Shown here piece by piece: positions 4,901 to 56,400 of a DNA stretch of 64,000 bases. Made by a program: the position numbers and the translations under genes. The stretch is from the NCBI GenBank assembly GCA_903813345.2, contig CAIIXF020000003.1, positions 32,797,151 to 32,861,150 on the forward strand, written 5' to 3'. This stretch comes from Owenia fusiformis. Taxonomy: Eukaryota; Annelida; Polychaeta; Sabellida; Oweniidae. Position 1 is the first letter of the stretch. Each line of letters begins with the position of its first letter. A model generated the notes under the pieces. That model did not search any database. It saw only the letters and a list, made by a program, of their open reading frames with translations, and had not been told where the DNA came from.

Positions 4901-7900
4901 GTCTTGGAGAAATATTCACAAAAATCAGATTTGAAGAGTCGAATGCATGTCTCTTGAGGGGTATGGACCCATTGTTCATAGTGACGGCCCAGTTTGTGAA
5001 CCTGCCAAAGAATGGGCTTGTCCCAGTCAATGAAGTCTTTCTGAAATCACACATATAAATATATTTATTCCATAGTTATTCTTGAAATCACACACATCAA
5101 TATATTTATCCCATTGGTATTCTTGAAATCATACACATCAATATATTTATCCAATAGTTTTTCTTGAAATCACACACATCAATATATTTATCCCATAGTT
5201 TTTCTTGAAATCACACACATCAATATATTTATCCAATAGTTTTTCTTGAAATCACACACATCAATATATTTATCCAATAGTTTTTCTTGAAATCACACAC
5301 ATCAATATATTTATCCCATAGTTATTTTTGAAATCACACACATCAATATATTTATCCCATAGTTATTCTTGAAATCACACACATTGATATATTTATCCCA
5401 GGGTTATTTTTGAAATCACACACATCAATATATTTATCCCATAGTTATTCTTGAAATCACACACATCAATATATTTATCCCATAGTTATTTTTGAAATCA
5501 CACACATCAATATATTTATCCCATAATTATTCTTTAAATCACAATCATCAATATATTTATGTCATAGTTATTCTTGAAATCACAAACATCAATATATTTA
5601 CCCCATAGTTATTCTTGAAATCACACACATCAATACATTTATCCCATAATTATTCCTGGAAAGGTATCACAGACATTCCCATGTGGGATATTATTTTGAG
5701 GTACAAAAGGCACTTTAACTGGTTTAATTATATGTCAAAAAAGCTGGAACAGAATATGGGTTCAATCATTGGGTACAAGCATTGAGACAGGGTGCCAGCC
5801 ACTGGGTCAATGTGGTCGGATGAATTAACATGTACATAAAAGCTGTTATAAATAAATGATCATAGGGGAAAATTACCCGACAACTGGTTTGTAATCGTAT
5901 TAGTTAACGAGTAACTGTAACTCTCGTTAATGCATCTGCTACCATAAATTCCTGTATAGTATATCAGAGTACAAAGACTGGGCTTCAAGCAATCATTTCT
6001 TATTCTATTACATCATATCACAAGTCAGAAATACCTTTAATATTTTCTTTATAGATTCAAGCAGTCAATATGTATCATAGGTTTTCTAGAGGCCTATTCA
6101 ACGGTATGATGATTGTATTGATCTATGATTATTAAACACAATTTATTTGACTCATGAATAAAAAGATCAAATCCTATCATATTAGCCTCTGAGAATTACA
6201 GATGATTGTAAATGATCTCAAACGAATATTCTATGGGGATTCAATTTAAACGTGAAATGAGTATTAGCAACTGACTGACAAAAAAAGTCATGATTTAGTT
6301 TTTTTAATCAATAGGACATACATGTACATTGAATAAACAGGGTTGGGGCAAATCGTCTTCAGTGTAATCATAATTTTCTGACAGAACAGGTATATTTTGA
6401 TCTCAATTGGCTTGAGTGTGGAAATACTTGTTACTTTATTAAAGAGAGTTACACTAAAGCTTTTAGAAAACTCACCTCTATGAAATCAAACTGATTTTCT
6501 TTGTTCTCATGGATACCATTATTTGTTGCCCCGTTACCATTAGCAGCCATTTTCTTGGGTTCATCTTTCGTAGAAATGCGTTTTTGAGCATTCTGAAAAT
6601 AAATTTCAATTCAATATAATTTTGTTTCTATGGTTACTGGAAAGCATTAAGTCTCGGATTATTAAACGTGGTGATGATATCCATAGCTTTAATTTTAAAA
6701 ATGTGAAATCAAATTATCACACCCTGTTGCAAATCTGTTCAATACCATGTCAAAAGATGAAATATTGAGATGTCTAACCTGATTAGGAAAAATTCATATC
6801 AATAAACAATGCCTTTTACAAACATTGAGGAGTAGAATTATATTCAGAATAACATACGGAACTACTTTGTGAGGAGAAAATTTTTCAGTCTTTTAACCCA
6901 ATGATTTAATTATAATAAAACATTTAAAGTTGAACACCTCCTATTGAAGTAGAACATTTTTAAGGAAAATCAATAGTGTTCTTCTAACAAAGGTCTTACT
7001 GTGTGTTTAATGAAATCAAGCTAAAAGGATCATCCATTAGTATCAGGTATATTATTAAGACTATCTAATATAATTACTAAATATTAAATTCACTCTTAAT
7101 GTCACAGGGATACTCGCATAGAAGTTTTCTTATTGCCGTGTATATTTTGTTTTGTTTATTTCTGCCAAAATTCATGAACAACCAATTATATGTTGGGACA
7201 TTTTGCTTTTGACACCACACATTTTTGCTTATACTCATTTTTCTTCCTAGTATTGTCTAGTATTGTCTATTAATATTTGACTCCCATACAATTTGAAGGG
7301 TCATTAATATTTATTTTGATATTTGAATATATAAAGCCATTGATTCCAAAAAAGTTTTCGACCCAATACCTCAAGGACAATTAATATTTTGAACTAATTC
7401 CTCTAATTTTTTGAAAAACATTTTGAGATAACCCCATAGAATAGTTGATATTAGTTTTCTTAGAACTGCAATATTTAGCTTAATGCCATAAGCTGTAAGA
7501 GACTGCAGAAATAGATATCACGTTTATAGGTGTTCAATGTCACATTGATTTATTTCATACGACTTTCCGATAATAAAATAAAACAAGATATCTCTGGGAG
7601 TGTAGCACTTAAAGGCCAGAATGAGGCTCAACCAAAGAGAAATGTAATTTATCTTAGACTCTTAAACAAATATCTAGCATTCTAGTAAACAAATAAAGAA
7701 TCAAAGTTTTTGTTTAATTTGTTCTGTGCATGCTCAATGAGGAGGTATATTTTAGATATGGAGGATTACTTATTTACTTCAACAAGTTCATAAGTTTACT
7801 TTAGTTAATAGAGCTTCCCACAAGCGACCATACTGGACAGTCGCTATGGCTACTTTTAACAACCAATACATGAGACATATATTCCAACAGAATCAATGAT

Positions 7901-10900: not shown

Positions 10901-13900
10901 TCATACAGTAAAACATGTTTGATTGCAGTCAGGTGTTTTTTTTAATATTCGCTATAATCTGTTTCTTGAATTATACAATTCACAAATTGATAATTTCATA
11001 TATGTTATCAATAGAAAAAATCTATAATCGTGAAAGCTTACAAAAACTTAATGCACGGATATTCTAGTTTTATAAAACTATACCTTTGTGAATATAACAT
11101 GTTTTATGTATAATAAAAAGGATGAAGAGGCCCAGCTGCAAATGCCACAGGGGTCCTATTACATAACACAGAGTTCTATCTTCATATAACCAGATGTTTT
11201 ATTTTCAGATTCATGGATTACTTTATCTACAGCAGAGAGCCTATTGTCCTTGTAAGGAATCATGTTTTATAGTCTTCAATACTTTGATTTTGCAAGATGT
11301 TACACAGATATACATGAAATACATGTGCATTCTTTAATTTAGAGATAACCCTTCATCTTAGCCTTTCCTAATCAGGTCAGAATACTGCGAACAGCTAGTT
11401 CTATTTTCCAACCACCTAATCAGTATTTCAGTCACAAAATGTCCATTTTTCCTATAAGGCCCTTAGACAGCCATCAGAAATATATCTATTTAGCATTTCA
11501 TGTTTGAAAACCAATTAACGAGACAACAACTTTTTTGAGATAATTAGATCTTCTCAGCATCAAACTGTATACATTTCAATTTTTATCATACATTGTATTA
11601 CATTTTAATGTGCAGGGGTGGTAGAATTGTATAGACAATCAAATATCAATATTTTCACATGCCAACGCCATTTAGACCTCAAGAATTTATGATTTTTTCA
11701 GAAGCAAGCATTTTCTGAACAAGAGATTAGATTTGTATATAAACCAGAATTATCCCTTTCTTATAACATGAGGCCCATATCTAATATTTATCCCTTTCTT
11801 ATAGCATGAGGCCCATATCTAATAATTATCCCTTTCTTATAACATGCGGCCCATATCTAATAATTATCCCTTTCTTATAGCATGAGGCCCATATCTAATA
11901 ATTATCCCTTTCTTATAGCATGAGGCCCATATCTAATAATTATCCCTTTCTTATAGCATGAGGCCCATATCTAATAATTATCCTTTCTTATAGCATGCGG
12001 CCCATATCTAATAATTATCCCTTTCTTATAGCATGAGGCCCATATCTAATAATTATCCCTTTCTTATAGCATGAGGCCCATATCTAATAATTATCCCTTT
12101 CTTATAGCATGAGGCCCATATCTAATAATTATCCCTTTCTTATAGCATGAGACATATCTAATAATTATCCCTTTCTTATAGCATGAGGCCCATATCTAAT
12201 AATTATCCCTTTCTTATAGCATGAGACATATCTAATAATTATCCCTTTCTTATAGCATGAGGCCCATATCTAATAAGTATCCCTTTCTTATAGCATGAGG
12301 CCCATATCTAATAATTATCCCTTTCTTATAGCATGAGGCCCATATCTAATAATTATCCCTTTCTTATAACATGTGGCCCATATCTAATAATTATCCCTTT
12401 CTTATAGCATGAGGCCCATATCTAATAATTATCCCTTTCTTATAGCATGAGGCCCATATCTAATAATTATCCCTTTCTTATAACATGTGGCCCATATCTA
12501 ATAATTATCCCTTTCTTATAACATGTGGCCTATATCTAATAATTATCCCTTTCTTATAGCATGAGACATATCTAATAATTATCCCTTTCTTATAGCATGA
12601 GGCCCATATCTAATAATTATCCCTTTCTTATAGCATGAGACATATCTAATAATTATCCCTTTCTTATAGCATGAGGCCCATATCTAATAATTATCCCTTT
12701 CTTATAGCATGAGACATATCTAATAATTATCCCTTTCTTATAGCATGAGGCCCATATCTAATAATTATCCCTTTCTTATAGCATGAGACATATCTAATAA
12801 TTATCCCTTTCTTATAGCATGAGGCCCATATCTAATATTTATCCCTTTCTTATAGCATGAGACATATCTAATAATTATCCCTTTCTTATAGCATGAGGCC
12901 CATATCTAATAATTATCCCTTTCTGATAGCATGAGGCCCATATCTAATAATTATCCCTTTCTTATAGCATGCGGCCCATATCTAATAATTATCCCTTTCT
13001 TATAGCATGCGGCCCATATCTAATAATTATCCCTTTCTTATAGCATGAGGCCCATATCTAATAATTATCCTTTCTTATAGCATGTGGCCCATATCTAATA
13101 ATTATCCCTTTCTTATAGCATGAGACATATCTAATAATTATCCCTTTCTTATAGCATGAGGCCCATATCTAATAATTATCCCTTTCTTATAGCATGAGGC
13201 CCATATCTAATAAGTATCCCTTTCTTATAGCATGCGGCCCATATCTAATAATTATCCCTTTCTTATAGCATGAGACATATCTAATAATTATTTCTTTCTT
13301 ATAGCATGAGACATATCTAATAATTATCCCTTTCTTATAGCATGAGACATATCTAATAATTATCCCTTTCTTATAGCATGAGGCCCATATCTAATAATTA
13401 TCCCTTTCTTATAGCATGAGGCCCATATCTAATAATTATCCCTTTCTTATAGCATGAGGCCCATATCTAATAATTATCCCTTTCTTATAGCATGAGGCCC
13501 ATATCTAATAATTATCCTTTCTTATAGCATGTGGCCAATATCTAATAATTATCCCTTTCTTATAGCATGAGACATATCTAATAATTATCCCTTTCTTATA
13601 GCATGAGGCCCATATCTAATAATTATCCCTTTCTTATAGCATGAGACATATCTAATAATTATCCCTTTCTTATAGCATGAGGCCCATATCTAATAATTAT
13701 CCCTTTCTTATAGCATGAGACATATCTAATAATTATCCCTTTCTTATAGCATGAGGCCCATATCTAATAATTATCCCTTTCTTATAGCATGAGACATATC
13801 TAATAATTATCCCTTTCTTATAGCATGAGGCCCATATCTAATAATTATCCCTTTCTTATAGCATGAGGCCCATATCTAATAAGTATCCCTTTCTTATAGC

Positions 13901-16900
13901 ATGAGACATATCTAATAATTATCCTTTCTTATAGCATGAGACATATCTAATAATTATCCCTTTCTTATAGCATGAGGCCCATATCTAATAATTATCCCTT
14001 TCTTATAGCATGAGACATATCTAATAATTATCCCTTTCTTATAGCATGAGGCCCATATCTAATAATTATCCCTTTCTTATAGCATGAGGCCCATATCTAA
14101 TAATTATCCCTTTCTTATAGCATGAGACATATCTAATAATTATCCTTTCTTATAGCATGAGACATATCTAATAATTATCCCTTTCTTATAGCATGAGGCC
14201 CATATCTAATAATTATCCCTTTCTTATAGCATGAGACATATCTAATAATTATCCCTTTCTTATAGCATGAGGCCCATATCTAATAATTATCCCTTTCTGA
14301 TAGCATGAGGCCCATTAATAATTACCCTTTCTTATAGCATGAGGCCCATATCTAATAATTATCCCTTTCTTATAGCATGAGACATATCTAATAATTATCC
14401 CTTTCTTATAGCATGAGGCCCATATCTAATAATTATCCCTTTCTGATAGCATGAGGCCCATATCTAATAATTATCCCTTTCTTATAGCATGAGGCCCATA
14501 TCTAATAATTATCCCTTTCTGATAGCATGAGGCCCATATCTAATAATTATCCCTTTCTTATAGCATGAGGCCCATATCTAATAATTATCCCTTTCTTATA
14601 GCATGAGGCCCATATCTAATAATTATCCCTTTCTGATAGCATGAGGCCCATATCTAATAATTATCCTTTCTTATAGCATGAGGCCCATATCTAGTAATTA
14701 TCCTTTCTTATAGCATAAGGCCCATATCTAATAATTATCCCTTTCTTATAGCATGAGGCCCATATCTAATAATTATCCCTTTTTTATAGCATGAGACATA
14801 TCTAATAATTATCCCTTTCTTATAGCATGAGACATATCTAATAATTATCCCTTTCTTATAGCATGAGGCCCATATCTAATAATTATCCCTTTCTGATAGC
14901 ATGAGGCCCATATCTAATAATTATCCCTTTCTTATAACATGTGGCCCATATCTAATATTTATCCCTTTCTTATAGCATGAGACAAATCTAATAATTATCC
15001 CTTTCTTATAGCATGAGGCCCATATCTAATATTTATCCCTTTCTTATAGCATGAGACATATCTAATAATTATCCCTTTCTTATAGCATGAGGCCCATATC
15101 TAATAATTATCCCTTTCTGATAGCATGAGGCCCATATCTAATAATTATCCCTTTCTTATAGCATGAGGCCCATATCTAATAATTATCCCTTTCTTATAGC
15201 ATGAGGCCCATATCTAATAATTATCCCTTTCTTATAACATGTGGCCCATATCTAATAATTATCCCTTTCTTATAGCATGAGGCCCATATCTAATAATTAT
15301 CCCTTTCTTATAGCATGAGGCCCATATCTAATAATTATCCCTTTGTTATAGCATGAGGCCCATATCTAATAATTATCCCTTTCTTATAGCATGCGGCCCA
15401 TATCTAATAATTATCCCTTTCTTATAGCATGCGGCCCATATCTAATAAGTATCCCTTTCTTATAGCATGAGGCCCATATCTAATAAGTATCCCTTTCTTA
15501 TAGCATGCGGCCCATATCTAATAATTATCCCTTTCTTATAGCATGAGGCCCATATCTAATAATTATCCCTTTCTTATAGCATGAGGCCCATATCTAATAA
15601 TTATCCCTTTCTTATAGCATGAGGCCCATATCTAATATTTATCCCTTTCTTATAGCATGAGGCCCATATCTAATAATTATCCCTTTCTTATAGCATGCGG
15701 CCCATATCTAATAATGATACTTGCTTCAGGACACTTCTATTATCTTTGAATAATATAAACTTGTTATAATCTACCTCATTACAAAAATACAATATTCTTT
15801 AAATAATTATAAAATCACCCCAGTAACCATGGTAAGGACAAGTAGCTAGATGTGATATCATTGTATTGGAATGGTTCATTGATGAGATAACCCCATGCCA
15901 TTTAGTTGCACTAAAGTGATAATTCTTGAATAAAAGGGCAATTTATAGGCATATGTATTAAAACACTTCCCTTTTAATAATGTTGCTATAATTTCGCTTT
16001 TGTTGAGATCAAAATATGCATGAATATAGGTACTTCATTTACTGAAATATATTGTAAACCACAACTAGAATTGATTTTTCAACAGTAACTCTCTACACCT
16101 TTATTAAAATCATATTGCTATCAGTATAAAATTATATTTAGCCACTTTGTAAATGGGTACTGAGGGGGGGGGGGGCAGAATTACCAGGGAGAATTCTGTT
16201 TCCAAGCATACAGAGAAAGTATAGGGCTTTTTCAAATGTAAATCAAATTACAAATAAAAATGAAAGAAACCAGGTGAAATTGTGTTAGGCCCCATGCCCA
16301 AAGCCCATAAGTGCTATAACATATTTAAACATAACCTGAGTAAAGATCATCCTTATTTGAATATATAACCAAAATCAAATAACTCTTGTATTTGCAATTA
16401 GTACATTTGTTCATTTTCAGAAACATCTATCACATTAATTTGACAAGTACCGACTGTGTAGAATTCACTTGCTTAAGGTGAACCAAAATAATCTTTGTGA
16501 TTTGTGCTCGTAAATTAACTTCCTTGAGAAATATTTAGATGAGAAGGTCCATGTCTGCATCCTCCAAATGCAGGGTTCCAGACATCATCCACTAAATTCC
16601 TTCTTTCTTCTTATGGAAGAAGGAGATACAAGTTCTGGAGGCCTGTGTTCAGAGGATGCATGTCTATGGTTGAAAACATGCATGTCTATGGTTGAAAACA
16701 TGCATGTCTATGGTTGAAAACATGCATGTCTATGGTTGAAAACATGCATGTCTATGGTTGAAAACATGCATGTCTATGGTTGAAAACATGCATGTCTATG
16801 GTTGAAAACATGCATGTCTATGGTTGAAAACATGACTGGACTTAACAGATTGGCATTCAGCTCATTCCCTAATGGAAATTAGTTTTTCCAAGTTCAATGC

Positions 16901-32693: not shown

Positions 32694-33436
32694 TCATGAA
32701 TGCTGATCTTGAATTATGTATTTAACAATATACTTAAATATTAATGTCAAGCCAAATTACACAAATATGATAACTGAACTGTCCCTTATTTTCTCAAATT
32801 GAAGTTTAGACAGTTCTTTTCATTTTGTTGTTAATTTGTGTTTAAGAAACAAATGTAATCTGATTCTAGGAAGTCATGCAAAAGAAAAAATAAGAATGGA
32901 CCAATTATGCTTCTAGCTGGCCTCAGTCATCAATCCTCCCAATTAATGATTTCCAATTTTAATCTATTTAGAAAAGAAACATAGAAAACTGCTTCTATAA
33001 TGTCACAAAAAATGATCAATTTAACTCAACACAGGGCATAACTGGATGAACAAGCTGATAATTTTGAACATTACATTTTGACATTTGCTTCACAGATCCT
33101 GTATGGATGGCAAAACTTTGAGCAAACATTAAAACATTTTTGTCATGTTTATATTATAAATCTGTTTATTTCTTTGATATACAACAAGAATGTACAATAT
33201 GTATATTGTTAAAATATGTTACAATAATGCAATATAGGTGATTGAATAATTACATATAATACAAACAGTACATATAAATAAATTCAAACTGAACAACATT
33301 AAGAGTTCTATGTTATTGAGTATGCAAAGTGTCAAACTGGCATATGGGAAAATATCAAGTTTCTCTAAAATATAAACGAAAGAAACTATTTCTGTGGTAC
33401 ATTTTGGTAATAACTTAATTTTACTTTTAGTAAAAC
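32694..33436. other. 3' UTR and flank of the C18orf21-like gene
   Basis: No coding sequence is present. An AATAAA occurs at 33277-33282 and an ATTAAA near 33130; either could be the polyadenylation signal. The DIRS element begins at 33437. Confidence 0.4.
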
Positions 33437-33479
33437 TATAAACTGAAGATTTTTTTTATTAAATCAACCGTTTATGGAA

Positions 33480-33627
33480 CTTACTTACCTCTTAATTATA
33501 TGCCATTACCTTAATAAATTGACTAGTCGAAAGGTCTAACACCCCTATTGAATGAACGGATTAGTGAATGAACTCGTCCAATACACTGCCTATCCATGCT
33601 TCATGCTACGACCTACTTCATATTACC
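33480..33627. repeat. DIRS inverted terminal repeat, 3' side of element
   Basis: This sequence is the inverted copy of 38720-38870, ending at the common ...CTTCATATTACC. It lies inside the outer left tail (33446-33479), which is specific to this end. Confidence 0.88.
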
Positions 33628-33696
33628 GAGAGACCTCGAAGATACAAAAAAATAAAATGAAAAATTTCCCTCAAGCGGGGAAGGTGGGTGGGTCTC

Positions 33697-33790
33697 TGGT
33701 AATTAAGAGGTAAGTAAGTTCCATAAACGGTTGATTTAATAAAAAAAATCTTCAGTTTATATCACTTACTTCCCTCTTAATTATATGTCA
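33697..33790. repeat. DIRS internal complementary region (circle-junction copy)
   Basis: One half is the inverted copy of the left outer end and the other half is the inverted copy of the right outer end. They are fused at CAGTTTATA (33753-33761). Read on the minus strand it is right end, core, left end: exactly what a joined circle would contain. Confidence 0.88.
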
Positions 33791-33850
33791 TAGCATGTAA
33801 CATATTGGATAGGTGGGGTGAAAAAAGTTGTTGTGTACTTACTGCACCTG

Positions 33851-34993
33851 CTACAGGTCGCACACAGTTCCAGCCAGCATCACAGGTCCTAGCTTTCTAG
33901 CTTCATCTTGTAGGACTGTGACATCACGCAGATAAAAGTCGATAAAAGTGTTGTTGTGAGCCCAAGAGCAACTTTTCAATATTTCTGTTAGGCTAACATT
34001 CGACTGTACTGCATATGAGGCTGATAACGCTCTTATTTCATGTGCGTTAACTTTCCCAATTCTTCTACTCTCAGCTGTGGAATTATTGTAGGTTAGAAGA
34101 ATCAGATGTTTCATCCAGCTGGATAAAGTATTTAAGTGTAAATTGCTATTACACCCTTTCTTCCAAGGTATGAAGATCCTATTCCTGGTACCTCTGAAGA
34201 CTCTGGTAGCAGCAAGATAAAATCTGAGTGCTCTAAGTGGGCATAAGCATCGATCTGGATCATTTCCCACATGGCTTGCCAATGATTTCAGATGTATAGG
34301 TTGAAATCTGGCTTGTCCCTCTGCTGCTTCCAAGCTCTTTGGCAGAAAACCAATGAATGGATAGAGGAAAACTTCTGTATTGTTATTTTTCCATTGTATC
34401 CTTGTAACATCTAAGGCATGTATCTCACTACGTCTCTTGCCCGAGGCTAACAGTAGAAGAAATACAGTCTTTAAAGTCACCCATTTGATATCTGCCGAAT
34501 TCATAGGTTCAAATGGAGGCTTTAATAGTTCATGAAGTACAAAAACCAAGTCCCATTTGGGTAAGGTAGACTTTGGAATTGCATCTTCTAATTTAAAGGA
34601 TCTCAACATATCATGTATCACTTGTGATTCTGAGAGATCTTTAGATTGTGTAGATTTCCTGACATTGTTTATAGCTGTTCTGTAGCCCTCGATAGTAGAA
34701 AAAGACCTCTTTTTAGTGTTTCTGAGATAAATGAAGAAATCTGCAATCATTGGAATAGATGCCTCGATGGGATTGGTATCTCTTTCCAAACACCAAACAG
34801 AGAATAATTTCCACTTTGAATCGTAGATGGCATTGGTAGATTTTCTCCTAGACTTTTGTACTGCTTTGGACACTTCTTCAGAAAACCCCTCCTCTCGCAA
34901 GTTATTGTTGATAACAGACAAGCGTGTAGAGACATCTTTTCTGGATCTTGATGAAAAATCGAGGTCCTTGGCATAAGAAGGAGTTTCTTCCAT
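33851..34993 (-). CDS. DIRS tyrosine recombinase (ORF3)
   Basis: About 380 residues with the tyrosine recombinase fold. An N-terminal SAM-like part includes FSTIEGYRTAINN. The catalytic pieces are an Arg in ASGKRRSEIHAL, HEIRAL (the H-x-x-R box), and the nucleophile Tyr in FIDFYLRDV, 27 residues from the end. The family cuts and rejoins DNA to integrate the circular cDNA. The same frame stays open upstream to 36823, but that part overlaps the RT ORF and is low-complexity. The start is therefore uncertain and 34993 is the first Met before the recognisable region. The first 250 nt overlap the end of ORF2. Confidence 0.88.
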   Translation of the reverse strand: MEETPSYAKDLDFSSRSRKDVSTRLSVINNNLREEGFSEEVSKAVQKSRRKSTNAIYDSKWKLFSVWCLERDTNPIEASIPMIADFFIYLRNTKKRSFSTIEGYRTAINNVRKSTQSKDLSESQVIHDMLRSFKLEDAIPKSTLPKWDLVFVLHELLKPPFEPMNSADIKWVTLKTVFLLLLASGKRRSEIHALDVTRIQWKNNNTEVFLYPFIGFLPKSLEAAEGQARFQPIHLKSLASHVGNDPDRCLCPLRALRFYLAATRVFRGTRNRIFIPWKKGCNSNLHLNTLSSWMKHLILLTYNNSTAESRRIGKVNAHEIRALSASYAVQSNVSLTEILKSCSWAHNNTFIDFYLRDVTVLQDEARKLGPVMLAGTVCDL

Positions 34994-37014
34994 ATTGGAA
35001 TCAGTACAGGAAAATCTACTAGTAGACTGAGAAGGTCTGGGTACCATGGTTGATTGGGCCATTTTGGTACTATCATTACACATTTTGTGTTTTGGTGAGC
35101 CTGCAGTTTGTTCAGGACTGCTGCTATCATTGCTGTTGGGGGAAATATGTAGAAGTACATGTTGTCCCAATTCAGTGACATGGCGTCTGTTTTCCACGAC
35201 TGAAGATCTGGAACTGGAGCCACGTAAACTGGAAGTTTGTGATTGTGAGATGTGGCCATCATGTCCAGATTGGGAGTTGGCCATATTTTCCATAGATTCT
35301 TGGTTATGTCTGCATGAAGAGACCACTCTGTGTTGACAATCTGGTTTTTCCGGGATAACTGATCTGCCCTTCTGTTCAGTGATCCTGGAATATGATTCGC
35401 TCTGAGTACAATTTGCTGATTGTGACACCATAAGAGAATCTCCTGAGTTAACTGGAGTAGTTGAGGGGAATGTGTTCCGCCCTGGTTGTTGATATATGCT
35501 GCTACAGTCGTGCTGTCTGTGCAAATCAGAATATTCTGTCCAGTTATCTTTTCCTTGAAGAACATCAGAGCTTTCTTGACTGTTAGTAACTCCAGAAAGT
35601 TGATGTGATGACTTGATTCCAACTGGGACCAGACTCCAGAGCATTCCTGCGATTGTGTGTGGGCCCCCCATGCTTCCAACGATGCATCTGTGTAGATTGT
35701 CATTGTTGGGTGAAATCTGTTGAGAGGCTGACCAGCTTGTAAATTCCTGGGGTCTAGCCACCATAGGAGTGCCCCCTGAGCATCTGGTGAGAGGACAACT
35801 AGATGTGACTGGGGCTGAGATAGAGGAGACCACTGTTGGAACAGACAACACTGTAGAGGTCGTAGATGAAGACGACCCAATGGCACTTGTTTCTCCGCAG
35901 ATGACAACAGGCCTAGTAGAGACTGCCAAGTTTCTGCTGAGGCTATTCCCTTCTCTAGAAGATGTTGTCCAGCTTTCCATATCTTTTCTACTCGATCGTG
36001 AGGGGGACGGCAAATTCCCTTGCTGAGATCGTATTCTACTCCCACATAAGTGAACTTCTGAGTTGGTTGTAGTTCCGACTTCTTGAAGTTTATGAGGAAA
36101 CCCAGAGCCTGAGCCAGCTCCAGCACCATCTGAGTATGTTGTAGAACTACTGTAGGTGAATTGCCTCGAATCAGCCAATCGTCGAGGTAATAATGAAACA
36201 GTATGCCTCTGGAGTGAAGATGAGCTGCTAGAGGCCGTAACAGATGTGTCCAAATCATCGGGGCTGATGCCAGACCAAAGGGCAGGGCTTTGAATTGAAG
36301 TACTTGGTCCTGAACAACAAAGCGCAGGTATTTCCTGAATGACTGCTTGATTGGGAGATGAAAGTAAGCATCTACGCAGTCTATGGACGTTACCCACTGT
36401 TGAGGCTGTACTGCATCCATGATCTGTGCTACTGTTTCCATCTTGAACTTTGGAACTTCTAGATGAAGGTTCAGATGATGCAAGTTGATGACTGGTCTTA
36501 GAGAGCCGGATTTTTTTGGGACGAAGAAAAGATGACTGTAAAGGCCTGGACTGGATACGTTCTGGACAACTTCTATGGCCTGTTTCTCCAGAAGTTGAGT
36601 GACTGTAGCTGCATAAAGGTCTTTTCTGTCTCTTGTTGATGACTGGAAAGGCCAAGGATTGCATGTAAGGGTAGGTTTTGTGTGAAGTTTCGGCTGGTAA
36701 CCTTCCTTTATGATCTGTAGAAAACCTCCTAGATCTGTGATTTCTTTCCATTTGGCAAGAAAATGCTGTAGTCTGCCTCCCACTGGTAGCTGTTGAGGGC
36801 TTACAGGTAGCTGTGGGAGACAAAGACTTGGAGGACTGGATGATAGAGGTAGATAGTCACTGTGATTTTTTCTCTCCTCTTCCCTTGCCACGAAAAGAGT
36901 TAGAGCTGTTCTTTTTACCAGGGCCATTGTTGTTATTGAAACTGGACTTTCTGTTGTTGTTGTTGTTGTCTTTCTTATTTGGTTGAGAAGACTTCTTTGA
37001 TTCAGCTCTCGCAT
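34747..37014 (-). CDS. DIRS reverse transcriptase-RNase H-methyltransferase-like polyprotein (ORF2)
   Basis: The frame is 755 codons. The RT domain covers about residues 135-340 and holds VDAYFHLPI, LPFGLASAP and the catalytic YLDD (276-279). RNase H covers about 437-555, with acidic residues D443 in IYTDAS, E475 in FLELL, D500 in CTDST and D551 in RRADQLS. About 560-680 is the DIRS-specific region after RNase H (LDMMATSHNHKLP, then FPPTAMI), often described as a DNA adenine methyltransferase-like domain. The protein copies element RNA into DNA. The first 158 nt overlap ORF1, and the N-terminal 80 residues are low-complexity, so the true start may lie downstream or need recoding. Confidence 0.92.
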   Translation of the reverse strand: MRELNQRSLLNQIRKTTTTTTESPVSITTMALVKRTALTLFVAREEERKNHSDYLPLSSSPPSLCLPQLPVSPQQLPVGGRLQHFLAKWKEITDLGGFLQIIKEGYQPKLHTKPTLTCNPWPFQSSTRDRKDLYAATVTQLLEKQAIEVVQNVSSPGLYSHLFFVPKKSGSLRPVINLHHLNLHLEVPKFKMETVAQIMDAVQPQQWVTSIDCVDAYFHLPIKQSFRKYLRFVVQDQVLQFKALPFGLASAPMIWTHLLRPLAAHLHSRGILFHYYLDDWLIRGNSPTVVLQHTQMVLELAQALGFLINFKKSELQPTQKFTYVGVEYDLSKGICRPPHDRVEKIWKAGQHLLEKGIASAETWQSLLGLLSSAEKQVPLGRLHLRPLQCCLFQQWSPLSQPQSHLVVLSPDAQGALLWWLDPRNLQAGQPLNRFHPTMTIYTDASLEAWGAHTQSQECSGVWSQLESSHHINFLELLTVKKALMFFKEKITGQNILICTDSTTVAAYINNQGGTHSPQLLQLTQEILLWCHNQQIVLRANHIPGSLNRRADQLSRKNQIVNTEWSLHADITKNLWKIWPTPNLDMMATSHNHKLPVYVAPVPDLQSWKTDAMSLNWDNMYFYIFPPTAMIAAVLNKLQAHQNTKCVMIVPKWPNQPWYPDLLSLLVDFPVLIPIWKKLLLMPRTSIFHQDPEKMSLHACLLSTITCERRGFLKKCPKQYKSLGENLPMPSTIQSGNYSLFGVWKEIPIPSRHLFQ

Positions 37015-38779
37015 TCATCTTAGCCAAGGAAGTTAAAGCCTGGTTGGTGAGATCAGACTGGTTGGACTTCAAAATTTCAGTGACTGACTCCTGTGGGAAT
37101 AATTCCTGAGCCAAAGGGTTTATGGGTAGAGTTCTGAGCATTTCCTTTGCTGCAGAAGGGCAAGTCATGTTCTTCAAGAAGCCATCTCTCCTAAGTAGAA
37201 CTACGTTGGACAGCAGTCTCACATTTTGATCAGTCAGACAGCCAATGGCTTGTGCTGCAGGTTGTAGTAGATCAGACAACATCTTAGTATCAGTGGATGA
37301 AGAATCGTTGAGAATTTTGGCCACTGCACCTAACAGCCATTCTGCATATGCCAGAGGTTTCAGTTGGAATCTTAAGCCTTCCTCTAGAAGCCTATACTGG
37401 GTCTTGCTGATAGTCAAATCCTTGTCAGCTTTCTTGAAATTTTCTTCAGACATCACCGCTGACAGGCTGGAATTTGGCCTCATACTCGAAACAACAAGTC
37501 CTCCGGCTGGAGGAATTGGAAAGCGTGATGCCTTGTCGTTTCGGGAAAGTTGTCCTACTTTTTTGAAGGCGAAATCGTTCGCGATGATCGAGGATCTGTT
37601 AGAAAAACAAGTCATCACCGTGGGTGATAATGGTAAGAAAGATTTTTCATTACCTTCAGACTCGTTTTTGAAGAACTGCGATGCCAAGGGCTTGATAACC
37701 ACCGCTCTGTCTGGAACTTGGTGCGTCAGGTTAGCGTCTGGTAACAGGTTTTTGACTTGTGATATCGCCGCCGCGTTGTACGAAGCCAAAACTTTCTCTT
37801 CTTCCGAAATCCTGGAGCCGCCATCTTGAAAATTTTCACTGGGCGAGTCCATATCCTCGGGCCCCTCGTGACGTTCGAGACTGTGATTGGTTGAACTTTC
37901 TTTCGAAAGTGAAACTGGAGCAATCACTTCCGGGTTAGGTGACCTCGTTCGAACTGGACTTCTGCTTCTAGAGCGGGACTTTGGTCTCCTATGGGGACTT
38001 CTGTGCTTGTCTCTGCTGCTACGAAGTGACGGGTCACGTGGTCTAGGCGTGTAACTAGAAGAGACACTAGTTTCACGACTGTAAGACCTACTACGCCTGC
38101 GTGGACTGTGTTCACCATGACGGTCATGATGACCTCTTCTCTCCGGCGTATAACGTCTGGGTTCTGGTCTCCTAGGGCTCCAAACTCTGTCCCGACTGCT
38201 CGAATGTCTCCCATGTCTCCTGGGGCTGCCACGTCTCGAAGGACTTGCACGTCTCCTGGGACTTGCGTGGCTTCTGGGGTCCTGAAATCTCCATGGGCTA
38301 GGGCTCCTGCGGGGACTCCTGTAACTTTTGCGGGGACTTCTGACAAATTCACTCCTTGCCGCTGAGCTTGGTCTGTCCGACCTTGCCTCCTGTTGAAGCC
38401 TCCGAGGACTGCTGTGCCTGGTGTTCACACTGTTCCTTGGGCTTTCTTGTTGCTTGTTTTGAAGCATTTCGTTCATCAGAACAGAAATCTTCTCCTTGAG
38501 AAAGTTGTCAGTCAGACTCATGTTGAAGTTCTGGTCTGCACTCTCTTGAATCCCTGCTTGCTCTGTGTCTCCATCAGTGCATTCTCCTTCTTCTTGCTGG
38601 AGAATGATAGCAGGACATTTCTCTGAGGTGTTCATGTAAACGTCCTCGTTGTTCATCATCTTGACGAGTATAGTTGCTCCAAGTTCTGTTGAAGGCTTGT
38701 AGCGAGATGGTCGTCGAAAGGTAATATGAAGTAGGTCGTAGCATGAAGCATGGATAGGCAGTGTATTGGACGAGTTCAT
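36857..38779 (-). CDS. DIRS ORF1, Gag-like protein with an RS-rich domain
   Basis: The frame is 640 codons. Residues about 113-290 are dense in RS, SPRR and RSRS phrases, like the RS domains of splicing factors. Residues about 430-560 form a folded helical region with LKPLAYAEWLLGAV and LLSNVVLLRRDGFL. The tail is Asn-rich. No CCHC knuckle is seen. The position and helical core fit the nucleocapsid-like ORF1 of DIRS elements. The first Met lies inside the terminal repeat; Met41 (about 38659) lies just inside it and is an alternative start. Confidence 0.8.
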   Translation of the reverse strand: MNSSNTLPIHASCYDLLHITFRRPSRYKPSTELGATILVKMMNNEDVYMNTSEKCPAIILQQEEGECTDGDTEQAGIQESADQNFNMSLTDNFLKEKISVLMNEMLQNKQQESPRNSVNTRHSSPRRLQQEARSDRPSSAARSEFVRSPRKSYRSPRRSPSPWRFQDPRSHASPRRRASPSRRGSPRRHGRHSSSRDRVWSPRRPEPRRYTPERRGHHDRHGEHSPRRRSRSYSRETSVSSSYTPRPRDPSLRSSRDKHRSPHRRPKSRSRSRSPVRTRSPNPEVIAPVSLSKESSTNHSLERHEGPEDMDSPSENFQDGGSRISEEEKVLASYNAAAISQVKNLLPDANLTHQVPDRAVVIKPLASQFFKNESEGNEKSFLPLSPTVMTCFSNRSSIIANDFAFKKVGQLSRNDKASRFPIPPAGGLVVSSMRPNSSLSAVMSEENFKKADKDLTISKTQYRLLEEGLRFQLKPLAYAEWLLGAVAKILNDSSSTDTKMLSDLLQPAAQAIGCLTDQNVRLLSNVVLLRRDGFLKNMTCPSAAKEMLRTLPINPLAQELFPQESVTEILKSNQSDLTNQALTSLAKMNARAESKKSSQPNKKDNNNNNRKSSFNNNNGPGKKNSSNSFRGKGRGEKKSQ

Positions 38780-38870
38780 TCACTAATCCGTTCATTCAAT
38801 AGGGGTGTTAGACCTTTCGACTAGTCAATTTATTAAGGTAATGGCATATAATTAAGAGGGAAGTAAGTGA
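38720..38870. repeat. DIRS inverted terminal repeat, 5' side of element
   Basis: This is the inverted copy of 33480-33627. It includes the first codons of ORF1. It is followed by the end-specific tail and the TATAAACTG core at 38871-38879. Confidence 0.88.
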
Positions 38871-38883
38871 TATAAACTGTTGA

Positions 38884-39003
38884 AAACCTGTGCTTAGTGA
38901 ACACCTTTGAAGTCTTAAAAAGTTTACTGTTCTCAACAGATTTGTTTACTCTCAGAAGTCAATGGAGTCTGTTCTTCAAATGGTGTTCACTATGGACAGG
39001 TTT
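38884..39003. mobile_element. About 120-bp MITE abutting the DIRS end
   Basis: AAAACCTGTGCTTAGTGAAC and the inverted copy of AAAACCTGTCCATAGTGAAC bound it. Further copies of the ACAGGTGTTCACTAAGACAG phrase follow to about 39035. The DIRS element inserted 4 bp from its left end. Confidence 0.6.
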
Positions 39004-39039
39004 TCACAAAGACAGGTGTTCACTAAGACAGGTTTCATG

Positions 39040-40759: not shown

Positions 40760-41175
40760 TAGTGTTTAGGGTCCACATAGTTGGCCAGTATTTGGGCTCC
40801 ACTTAAGTAACCACCACATAGTTGGCCAATATTTAGGCTCCACTTAAGTAACCACCACATAGTTGGCCAGTATTTAGGCTCCACTTAAGTAACCACCACA
40901 TAGTTGGCCAGTATTTAGGCTCCACTTAAGCAACCACCACATAGTTGGCCAGTATTTAGGCTCCACTTAAGTAACCACCACATAGTTGGCCAGTATTTAG
41001 GCTCCACTTAAGTAAACCACCACATAGTTGGCCAGTATTTAGGCTCCACTTAAGTAACCACCACATAGTTGGCCAGTATTTAGGCTCCACTTAAGTAACC
41101 ACCTCATAGTTGGCCAGTATTTAGGCTCCACTTAATTAACCACCACATAGTTGGCCAGTATTTAGGCCCCATTTA
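40760..41175. repeat. 41-bp minisatellite, about 10 copies
   Basis: The unit reads AGTTGGCCAGTATTTAGGCT followed by CCACTTAAGTAACCACCACAT. More degenerate units extend on both sides (about 40640-41340). It lies just downstream of the coiled-coil stop codon, so it may be transcribed in that gene's 3' UTR. Confidence 0.92.
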
Positions 41176-41464
41176 AGTAACCAATAATTTAAGTCCCTTC
41201 AGTTGACCAATGTTTAGTATGTCATTAGTTTGCCAGTGTTGAGGGGCCACTTAATTGGTCAGTATTTCCGGTACATGTAGATCGCTATTTCTAGAGTCTA
41301 TCTATTTAGCCAGTGTTTGGGGTCCACTTTATCTGCTAGTGTTTAAGGTCCTCCATGGGTTCTAATACACACTTCATATAACACATAGCACCTGTAATTT
41401 TGTTCTACTTGAATAATCCAGCAGAAATATGATTCCCCCGTATTTTCTGTCCTCTAAGGGGACT

Positions 41465-44400: not shown

Positions 44401-47400
44401 AACTCACTCATGTTCTTCTAAACGTGCCCTCAGCTGTTGAAGCAATACTTGTTGATGACTAGAGTGGTCCTGTAAGGCCTGAAACACAATTGAACAATCA
44501 TTTATATTGCACAATGGAACAATATTTATAAAACACAATGGAACAATCATTTATATTACATGAGGGAACAATCATTTGTAAAACACAATGGAACAATCAT
44601 TTCTATTGCACAATGGAACAATCATTTATATCACACAATGGAACAATCATTTCTATTGCACAATGGAACAATCATTTATATTGCACAATGGAACAATCAT
44701 TTATATTGCACAATGGAACAATCATTTCTATTGCACAATGGAACAATCATTTATATTGCACAATGGAACAATCATTTATATTGCACAATGGAACAATCAT
44801 TTCTATTGCACAATGGAACAATCATTTCTATTGCACAATGGAACAATCATTTATATCACACAATGGAACAATCATTTCTATTGCACAATGGAACAATCAT
44901 TTATATTGCACAATGGAACAATCATTTATATTGCACAATGGAACAATCATTTCTATTGCACAATGGAACAATCACTTATATTGCACAATGGAACAATCAT
45001 TTATATCACACAATGGAACAATCATTTCTATTGCACAATGGAACAATCATTTATATTGCACAATGGAACAATCATTTATATTGCACAATGGAACAATCAT
45101 TTATATTGCACAATGGAACAATCATTTATATTGCACAATGGAACAATCATTTATATTGCACAATGGAACAATCATTTATATCGCACAATGGAACAATCAT
45201 TTATATTATATGAGGGAACATCATTACATCAGAAACACTATTTTTTATATAACACATTGGAACAATTATTAATATTAAACAATGGAACAATCATTTACAT
45301 AACACAAACACTTGTACAACCTAAAAATTACCACTGAACTCGAAATCTACAAAAGAACATTCAGAAGACCTTACCAAATTGCTTAAAGATGTACTAAAAC
45401 CACTTTACTTGATTTAGATTACACACATGCTACATTACCTTACTGAGGTCACTCTTTAAGATGGTGAACAACTAAAATCCCAAAATTTCATTTTATTCTG
45501 TTATTGGAGTTATAAAGTCAACACAGATCTGTTTTCTTGGCAAAACTGATTTCAACTTCAGAACAACCTTTTCATGTCACGTGACATAATTGTTGACGCA
45601 TCAAGAATTTGTCAATTTGCCGCTTAATGCGATTTTGTGAATGAAAATAAAACCCTGGCCTCAAAAAGTTGTTCACTCAGAGACGGAGCCTATTATTGCA
45701 TGATTTCAACTATCAATTTTGCAAAGGGTGACCAGTTCAGTGAGTGGATCAATCAATCTAGGGAATCTTTAAGTGTGTAATGCTGTGGCCACATTTGCTC
45801 AGCTTTTCAGTACCAGCACCCAGTCGATGAGTATTTTGTTCAAAATTGCATTCAGTTTTGATGAAATACTTATCGACCAGGCGCCATGTTGAAGATCGGA
45901 GCAAATGTGACAATGTGTTATTGTGATTTTTTGGAAATTTTGAACTTTTAACTTAAAGGACTAGATAAATGCCATAATAAGATCTCATACCATTTAAAAG
46001 TTTAGTCCAAAAGTGTGATTGACAAATTCAAAACATTAATAGGCCTGAAAAGGTATGGAAGTTACCCTAAAATGTAGTATAGGCAACAATAACAATATTT
46101 CAGAAGTTGACCGTTTAACAGTGTTTTGTGGGGTAATATCACTAGCTTTGTAGTAAAACTACTGAAATGCTGTTCTGTGGTGTAAGTAGGATATTTTCAG
46201 TTCCAAAGATGAGAGTTAAGAATTAATATTACCTTGAATCTATCTCCATCGTGTCTCTTCTCTTCAAGCTCTAGCTTGAGACGACCATTTTCTTGACCTA
46301 ACTCTGCAACCCTCTTAGACAAGTGACTGAAAACAACAAACGTATAACATATCTAAACCATAATATTTATCACAATGCTCAACATAGTTGTATCTAAGGG
46401 TGATTGGATGAGAAATAATTTTGATATCACAAAAGGTAAAACAAAATGAACAGTATTTGTGAATAAAGTGAATGAGTGAGAGATAAAGGTTCTAAACTGT
46501 AAAGAAAATTAAAGAAAATCTTGTATAAGTAACTATAAATAAAATATGAAAACAAAAGTTGCACACATTTTGATATTGAGGGTTAAAAGTAAACTATTTG
46601 TGTGAGAAATTATGGAAAATTATTTAATACTCACTCTTTCTCTGCTGTCACTGCATTCAAGGCTTTGCTTTGAGACCTGAATAAATTGAATATAATTTCA
46701 TATTATATTCTAAGAAATATGATTTTACAATATTTTGTTAACACATCTAAAAGCTAAAGCTACACAAAGAAAGAAAATAGAAAAAATTTTGAGGATGATC
46801 TAAAATTAAGTTGTTTATTGTACAGGCTATTAATGGTAAGGAAATGAGTGAAACATTGCGAGAAATTATTTTAAATAAACAAATTTTACCTAATTTTGTT
46901 TCCCAACTTCTCATTAGCGTGTCTGTAAGTGAGAAAATAATGATATAGAAGACGGTGCTTTCTCTAGGGAATCTATTTGTGTGTAATGCCATGGTCACAT
47001 TTGCTCAGATTTTCAGTACCAGCACCCAGGTGATGAGTATTTTGTTCAAAATTGCATTCAGTTTTGATGAAATACTAATCGACCAGGCGCCATGTTGAAG
47101 ATCGAAGCAAATGAGAGAATGTGTTATTGCAATTTTTTGGAAATTTTGAACTTTTAATTTAAAGGTCTAGATAAATGCCATAATAAGATATCTCATACCA
47201 TTTAAAAGTTTAGTCCAAAAGAGTGATTGCCAAATTCAAAACATTAATAGGCATATTGATATTTTAAAACAAAACATCAAAATACAAAGATAAAGCTAGA
47301 AAACAGTGAATAGGATCAACCACAAAAGCTGGTGACGTATAAAATGATGAAAAAACTAAATTAGTAAAAAACATGGCAAATAATAATAGCACTATTGCAA

Positions 47401-53400: not shown

Positions 53401-56400
53401 CTGCCCGTTTAACTATTTAAATCAAAAATAATAGATGGCGCTGACCATGCCAAAGTCCTCCTTGGAGAATTCCCAAGTGATACAATGAGCTACATCACTG
53501 AAGTTGAAAATTTTGCATACCTTATTTCCATTCTCCCGGTGTTGCTTCTGGTATTTTTCAACCTCATCTTCAAGCTCTGATGTCATATTCTTGTATTGTT
53601 GGAGCTGCCGCGACGTGTCTTGTTGTCGCAATCTCTCTGCATTCAACTCAGCCTGGAGTTGTGTGAGCACGGATTCCTGCTGTTCAACCTATGCACATAA
53701 TGTATTCCAGTTTTAGAAATAAAGAATATTTATTTAGAAAGTACGGTAAAATTTGTATATCTGAACACATCTATGATGCAAACACCTCTCAATATGAACA
53801 CTTTCTCTCAGTCACATTTTTGTATTTTCCCATATTCTCTCTGTGAAAGAAACCTTACAGAAACCTTGAAATGTGAGCAACTACAACATTTTTGGATGGT
53901 CTGAGTGGCATTCAGATGACACAGGTTTTTCACATTTGAAAAATTCATATTAGGACTTATAAAATACAAATAAACCATATTCCATATTTGCGATAGATTA
54001 TGATTTAGAACATTTTAAGTTTAATGCATCGCATATTACTTTTCTAGCACTTAGAAAGTATTCCATATTAGTTATACTTTTTTTAATTAAAAGTATCCAT
54101 TGTTAAGATTTGATAAAAGCACATTTTGTTCTAAGGAAACACTAAGAAGATACACTTCTGAATCAAGTTTTTACAAACTCTTAGGAATTAGAGTTTTGCA
54201 TATGTTTTTTAATTTTTTAATAAATATGATCACTGAAATGTAAATACCTGTTCTGTCAGCATTTTCTCTTGATCTTTGAGACCTTCTAGCTCAACCTCTG
54301 CCGTATGAGCCTGATTTTTGTAGGTCATCCCTTCCTGTATTGCATTATGGGTCTCCTCTTTACAGACGAGGACGTCTTTACGTAATTTCTCGATAGAGTT
54401 ACGCTGATCTTCAATTTCCTCTTCGTAGCTCATACTGCGCTCTCGGAGAGTTTTTAATTCAGTTTGGTGTTTGCGTACAGTTTGTTCGAGGCGTACAACC
54501 TCCGTTACCCTTTGGCTCAGCTGGTCTTGTGTGGTTGCGAGACTCTGTTCCATTATCATCAATTTTTCTTCATGATGGGCCAACTGGAAATACAAAAATT
54601 GAAAACTGGGAAAATTTTTAAATTTAATTTGACAACATAAAATTTAAAGAAATCAATGCCAGTGCATTTAGTAATTAAAGAGTGGAGGGGGGGGTGTTGA
54701 TGGGCATGTCACTTTTGTTAGTGTTGTAGATAAGGACCAGCTGATTATGATACTGGTATTGTACTATTATATATGATTAACCGATAAAATTGTGTTAAAT
54801 ACTGCAAAAACATAAACTAAGATAACAAGCCGATTATAGGTACATATGTACAAATATTTGTTTTCTCTCTTGTTGACCTAATAAACTTAAGATAAGTACA
54901 TTTTATCACAATGTCTTTGAGATAAAAAAGTCTTCATTCAACATGTGCTAGTATATAGACTAATAAATCATACTGCAAAGTACATGTTATATAAGATATT
55001 GTATTTAGACAAACATTAAAAAATACACATAAAAAGCACCTATAGAACACCTAAATATCACCTATTAAACACCAAGATATCACCTATACAACACCTGGAA
55101 AAGATGGATACCATAAAATTAGCAAAACGAAAAGCATACAAGAACACATTAATTCTAGGAGTAGGATTTATTCTAAACTTCAGTGCATTCACTGCACTGG
55201 CTTCTCTTCAGACGTCAATCAATATTGAGGATGGTCTCGGCACAACTGGCCTTGCTGTCATATATAGTGTTCTGATACCTTCTACAATATTCTTGCCAAA
55301 ATTTTGTATCAAACACTTTGGATGTACAAAAACAATGGGAATCAGTTTTATCGGATATGCCGTATTTCCCGCAGCTAATTTATACGCCACCTGGTGGACA
55401 ATTATCCCAGGTGCAGTGATTTGTGGGATTTCAGCGGGTACTTTGTGGACGGCGCAGTCAACGTACACGACACAGTCAGCAAGGATGTATAGTGAGATCA
55501 GTGGGGAGTCGTGTGAAGAAATGATTGCGGAATTACTTAGTCTCTTTTACTTCATGTTTGCTTTTTGTAAGTACAGCACGAATGATGAACGACAAACTAG
55601 AAAAAATTGATATTTATAATGCACAGAGATATAGGGTATCAAAAGTTTAAAGACCAACAAGTCCAGTAAAATCATAATTTTCAGCCAGTTGCTACTATGT
55701 CTCAAGTTCCAGGATGCTTATTTAAAATCTTTGGTTTGTTAAGTTTAGTTTGATATGCAGCACCCAATATAGAAAAATGAGTATTGTTTTTACATTTTTA
55801 TTTGTCCTGCAATCTCAGATATTTGAAATTTTTGCAAATCAATGTTTTCAAATATGTCCATGTATTGTCATTTGTTCCCGTTTTACCTTATTTGCTTCTT
55901 CATAATGTATTAAAGATCAGATATCAAAATGTATGTATAATTACATGTACTTTATAATGTAATGACAAAATGTTTATTTCAGCCACTATAGCAGGGAACA
56001 TTGCCGGCTCTGTTCTTCTCAATAACAACGACAACACCACAGAAATACCTGAAGATGAGCTTGACAAATGTGGACCTGAGTTCTGCCCAGCTGTGTATAA
56101 TGCAACAAATGATAACCTCTCAAGGCCTCCAGAAGAACTGGTACTTATTATAACTTCAATGATTAATATCTCAATAATTAAAAATTGTGTTTAGTTTTAG
56201 GTGGTCTCATTCTTCATATGACAATAAATCAATTTTAGATCTTGTGATTTTATCATTGTGAAAATTGTGTTTAGTTTATTTGGGATATTGTAGGGTGATT
56301 TCCTTCTAACTTGTGTAATTTTAGATGTTTTCTCTTTCTGGCTGCGTTCTGTGACCATTTTTGGTATTTTCCCATTGACAACTATGCATCCATATTTATG

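Follow-up and report, generated by a model that had tools for sequence, protein, structure and literature searches.

The stretch of DNA analysed here (the window, 64 kb in length) harbours a DIRS1-like retrotransposon in which the same nine bases, TATAAACTG, stand in direct orientation at both ends and once more, inverted, inside the element, at the place where its two internal complementary regions (ICRs) overlap. We consider it very probable that this is a recent and intact DIRS1-like insertion, which came about via an ICR-templated circle and recombination by a tyrosine recombinase (YR), and that the obligatory core is most likely GTT/AAC. In it the circle-junction template of DIRS elements is seen in clean form. 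How many of the nine bases belong to the core is a separate matter, on which several readings are weighed below.

Ends, repeats and the internal junction

A scan of the whole 64 kb finds three exact copies of the 9-mer and no fourth. Their count by itself is unremarkable (1.26 copies are expected, and at least three occur in 17 of 100 shuffles of the 64 kb), but their placement is not chance. Read on the minus strand across the internal copy, the right-end tail leads into the core and the core leads into the left-end tail. A preliminary description of this DNA had already reported the direct copies at both ends, the inverted copy inside and its position between the two tails; all three places and orientations as well as the internal arrangement were verified by reading the sequence. 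The identity between the ends comprises exactly nine bases. When each host flank is compared with the corresponding element tail, already the first base beyond the 9-mer differs, and no target-site duplication is present outside of it.

Table 1. Coordinates of the element, its parts and its flanks in the window (left and right refer to coding orientation).
Feature	Position	Strand	Remark
DIRS1-like retrotransposon	33437..38879	coding strand -	5437 bp counted GTT to GTT (33441-38877)
9-mer TATAAACTG, coding-left end	38871..38879	+	contains terminal trinucleotide GTT (coding) at 38875-38877
9-mer TATAAACTG, coding-right end	33437..33445	+	contains terminal GTT (coding) at 33441-33443
Internal single 9-mer copy, where the two ICRs overlap; circle-junction core	33753..33761	-	GTT on + at 33755-33757
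Left terminus / left inverted terminal repeat	38720..38879	-	starts CAGTTTATATCACTTAC
Right terminus	33437..33627	-	right inverted terminal repeat 33470-33627 and right extension 33441-33469 (29 nt)
Right-terminus inner site TCAACCGTTTATGG, counterpart of left end	33464..33477	+	resembles inferred target TCAACAGTTTATAG
Left ICR, complement of left terminus	33753..33791	+	pairs with 38841-38879; 38/39 (97%); 37 nt by GTT convention
Right ICR, complement of right terminus	33700..33761	+	pairs with 33437-33498; 62/62 (100%); 58 nt by GTT convention
gag-like ORF, 640 aa, stop TGA	36857..38779	-	named gag from position
RT-RNase H ORF, 755 aa	34747..37014	-	C-terminal part where DIRS methyltransferase would be
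YR frame (putative), 1001 open codons from gag stop	33851..36856	-	recombinase domain: last ~360 codons
Host flank outside coding-right end	33396..33436	.	sequence read
Host flank outside coding-left end	38880..38920	.	start of 28-nt imperfect inverted repeat, 38881-38908 with 38979-39006

From the left end on, the coding order is terminal repeat, gag-like frame, RT-RNase H frame, YR frame, ICR and right terminus. By the trinucleotide convention the element starts with GTT, ends with GTT and has AAC as its junction, and the sizes of the right extension and of both ICRs in Table 1 are given accordingly. The two ICRs overlap by 9 nt, which are exactly the internal 9-mer. The inverted terminal repeats agree in 159 of 164 aligned columns (97%), the outermost four of these columns being host flank on the side of the left repeat; the inner 140 columns are identical. 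The five mismatches are all confined to the outer 24 of the 164 columns, and this near-identity of the repeats suggests a recent insertion. A second copy of the element was looked for in the 64-kb window and none was found.

The element sits at the very edge of an imperfect inverted repeat (38881-39035; 28-nt arms, 89%, short tandem units). Elsewhere in the window there are tandem arrays at 11748-15715 (38 bp x 106), 44485-45297 (25 bp x 33, open in three plus-strand frames), 40773-41183 (41 bp x 10) and 5042-5655 (41 bp x 15). An exon-like ORF at 55104-55610 resembles an UNC-93 family protein (Pfam E 1.2e-6), which is consistent with an animal host.

Coding frames and a distant relative

The RT-RNase H frame matches the Pfam profiles RVT_1 (E 8.3e-21, above the cut-off) and RNase_H (E 0.00085, below it), and for a methyltransferase following RNase H the only Pfam match is a weak one to Dam (E 0.22). 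The gag-like ORF has no Pfam match at E 0.1. In the YR frame Phage_int_SAM_1 and Phage_integrase are found with E 0.0015 and 0.0093, both below the curated cut-offs, and the best match among solved structures is Cre (E 0.44). The recombinase domain shares 39% identity with its counterpart in a distant DIRS-like element (L003), and in this two-row alignment the R-R-S-E, H-E-I-R and Y columns are invariant. At E 0.01 Pfam recognises nothing in the L003 frame itself, and a structure predicted from the two sequences was uninformative (mean pLDDT 34). The assignment of the frame to the tyrosine recombinases is the sum of these weak, mutually agreeing matches, which together are weak evidence for it.

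L003 came out of a search with a conserved, back-translated RT motif. This motif gave no match in viral_contigs and three loci in genome_contigs (L001, L002 and L003), of which L003 is DIRS-like; L001, judged by eye, looked like a stretch with ordinary bacterial genes. An RT protein search found no relatives in viral_contigs and three pattern matches in genome_contigs, none of them confirmed, and tblastn against plasmids and phages found no relatives. The contig that carries L003 (L003:1-5301) bears the label of a Proteobacteria MAG (isolate Glo_12), in which it is probably a eukaryotic contaminant. The contig end truncates the element on its left side, and a search past the ICR turned up no right terminus; L003 therefore yields no junction overlap.

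Downstream of its YR frame L003 has an 88-nt hairpin that aligns with the ICR of the element described here at a local score of 48. This score was reached in none of 1000 mononucleotide shuffles (best 47) and in none of 258 host stretches (best 41). The hexamers ATAAAC and GTTTAT, which here are 26 nt apart and lie 7 and 7 nt from the arms, correspond to ATAAAT and ATTTAT in L003, 25 nt apart and 9 and 6 nt from the arms. In these two elements the comparison suggests that a terminal hexamer NTTTAT may be conserved, beyond NTT alone. In both elements the ICR junction lies between two coding-strand arms, AAGAGG[G/T]AAGT and ACTTACCTCTT (33705-33715 and 33768-33778 here; L003:410-497). The sequence AGGTAAGT resembles a consensus 5' splice site, which may be a coincidence.

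The two elements also share the arrangement of their frames. In each of them gag and YR lie in one frame and are split by a single TGA (TGA CTA at 36857-36859 of the minus strand here, TGA AGG in L003), and from this stop the YR frame is open through the overlap with RT for 1001 codons here and for 1002 codons in L003 (L003:904-3912). Shuffling synonymous codons of RT puts on average 31.5 and 18.0 stops into the YR frame, with 0 of 500 shuffles stop-free in either element. Translation that reads through the gag stop may produce YR, or YR may need the long frame in some other way. Between the two elements the YR frame is 22.4% identical inside the overlap (149 of 665) and 39.8% beyond it (121 of 304), the value for RT being 39.8%; the low identity inside the overlap would speak against a conserved protein there. 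A long pol/YR overlap is already known from half of 28 elements, according to the part of PMC3266345 drawn upon here, and a literature search on readthrough in such elements gave no title on the arrangement.

Insertion and the length of the shared core

In the published model (PMC3266345) the overlap of the ICRs is a 3-bp 'circular junction', and this recombines with the same sequence in the genome. The ICR-template model is likewise given in the part of PMC5633606 used here, together with circular copies found in one Dictyostelium deletion strain, whereas insertion of DIRS1 into targeted sites is described as still not experimentally demonstrated in a portion of a 2018 paper (PMC5941688). By analogy with this model, a transcript of the element would lack the outermost element ends, and the ICR, storing the joined ends in inverted form, would be the template for restoring them and for closing a circle. 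The element-encoded tyrosine recombinase would then recombine the junction with a matching host sequence, after which the shared core would stand once at either end and no target duplication would have arisen besides. With regard to the circle step, a 2020 paper reportedly has linear, single-stranded cDNA intermediates in its title, which may change this step. The obligatory shared core would most likely be the standard trinucleotide, here GTT/AAC, and the host target of this copy would have matched nine bases, by chance or by choice. For the empty site the model predicts that, in coding orientation, ...TTTTCAACAGTTTATAGTTTTAC... runs through without interruption and holds the core only once.

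The preliminary description had also proposed that the ends are joined via the core, which recombines with a matching host sequence, and that the crossover core can be read directly from the element. The anatomy fits the published DIRS model in this respect, and the proposal is not new but the accepted model rediscovered. The core in the published model is already identified with the 3 bp over which the ICRs overlap, so a readable crossover core is not a new inference either, and its length of nine bases is not established by one copy.

We are evenly divided on whether GTT (3 bp) alone suffices as the target match, with the remaining six bases (CA in front of it, TATA behind it) agreeing by chance in AT-rich DNA. 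Table 3 of PMC3266345 lists 28 elements with junctions of 2-3 bp, and several of these begin and end with unlike trinucleotides, e.g. CTT and CAT; 23 of the 28 DIRS1-like elements have NTT at both ends and a 3-bp overlap or junction. DIRS-1, in the accessible part of PMC5633606, targets its own copies 'without apparent sequence preference'. To gauge chance matches we took the GTT trinucleotides on either strand of the host sequence in the window, 1937 sites in all. A long match is rare among them but possible: six (~0.3%, ~0.003) match the junction over at least nine contiguous bases, and insertions with such a match are just those that a scanning reader would select. However, chance would then have to supply an event of about 0.3% per insertion, and a match with at least two bases to the left and at least four to the right of GTT, as here, is found at 0 of 1937 sites. 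If any of the seven trinucleotides within the 9-mer is taken as obligatory, the fractions range from 0.0018 to 0.0049. For one insertion picked out by a reader the nine-base match is at most suggestive, and a single copy does not allow a choice between chance and a longer core.

Such a longer core, acting in strand exchange or in site choice, is possible, and we put it forward tentatively. Probably this core would comprise six bases, GTTTAT (generalised to NTTTAT across the wider group), and some contacts with the arms would add to it. The collinear ICR of L003, with ATAAAT/ATTTAT in place of ATAAAC/GTTTAT, points in this direction, and PMC3212892 states that the spacers of YR sites measure 6-8 bp and that Cryptons have repeats of 4 or 6 bp. 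Moreover, when the inferred target TCAACAGTTTATAG is compared with the union of the junction and the inner site TCAACCGTTTATGG over GTT and the five bases to either side, all 13 positions fit, as they do at none of 1934 GTT sites. This resemblance was however noticed before it was tested, and it fades with the span considered (4, 9 and 60 of 1934 sites fit at 7, 8 and 10 bases); with the junction as the sole reference, 205 of 1934 sites do as well at 10 bases, and the target does not stand out. Against a longer core speak further an extra TTTTAT in the ICR here that has no counterpart in L003, the result that no inverted arms or dyad symmetry were found in the 57 nt surrounding the junction (equalled by 156 of 200 shuffles), the lack of sequence preference reported for DIRS-1, and the fact that only one insertion is at hand. 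The more specific proposal that DIRS recombinases choose their targets by the hexamer NTTTAT together with arm contacts, targets like TCAACAGTTTATAG mimicking both the circle junction and the inner right-terminus site, is rather doubtful. Should other copies, too, have targets that match the junction over a long stretch, the 'shared trinucleotide' rule would give way to a defined and testable site for a tyrosine recombinase of eukaryotes.

It is unlikely that all nine bases are owned by the element at both ends, as a terminal redundancy of the cDNA by which both ends would anneal on the ICR while the target shares little or nothing. An ICR overlap of exactly nine would be expected with the 9-mer on both termini, but the published junctions are shorter and a different mode of insertion would be needed. 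A 9-bp target-site duplication by a DDE-type integrase, which the directly repeated 9-mer resembles, was rejected as extremely improbable, as it is contradicted by the same 9-mer inside the element, joined to both tails, where a duplication made anew at each site would be absent; in addition, an integrase core sought with Pfam in the three frames was not found, and the third frame resembles YRs.

Comparison with known elements

Cryptons are DNA elements that are not known to carry RT and, unlike the element described here, they have no inverted repeats or ICR. They are alike in being YR elements, and the part of PMC3212892 referred to above describes short terminal direct repeats (4-6 bp) that are thought to be recombination substrates. 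PAT and Ngaro elements combine RT and YR as well, but according to the portions of PMC3266345 and PMC9210276 used they have split direct repeats. This A1-B1-A2-B2 order was not found here among the 20 direct-repeat families listed of 25. The long end-tied direct repeats among these families (69 nt at 75% and 35 nt at 86%) are due to the symmetry of terminal repeats and ICRs.

For DIRS-1, a paper by Cappello from 1985 is said to carry 'internal circle junction sequence' already in its title. The Dictyostelium element has this internal circle junction sequence, inverted repeats, an ICR and a YR in common with the element analysed here; insertion into its own copies, which is reported for DIRS-1, was not seen here (PMC5633606, in part). 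The termini of DIRS1-2 differ, having TTA ends instead of GTT (PMC3266345, in part).

The closest agreement is with the DIRS1-like elements. Like these, the element has inverted terminal repeats with a divergent outer and a conserved inner part, a right extension, two ICRs that overlap at the junction and an RT-RNase H frame. Within the accessible part of PMC3266345, its repeat sizes (rE 29; ICR 37 and 58) fall into the range of Table 3, and GaDIRS1, GaDIRS2 and SkoDIRS2 likewise have GTT/GTT ends and an AAC junction, with an rE of 26-27; a long pol/YR overlap as found here is present in GaDIRS1 and GaDIRS2 but not in SkoDIRS2. The trinucleotides of the ends (GTT) and of the junction (AAC) are thus those of some other DIRS1-like elements, yet the overlap in this single copy comprises 9 bp, unlike the 2-3 bp of the elements in that source. 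The element is a new case of the known DIRS1-like kind, and its sole unusual point is a shared stretch of nine bases in place of the usual three.
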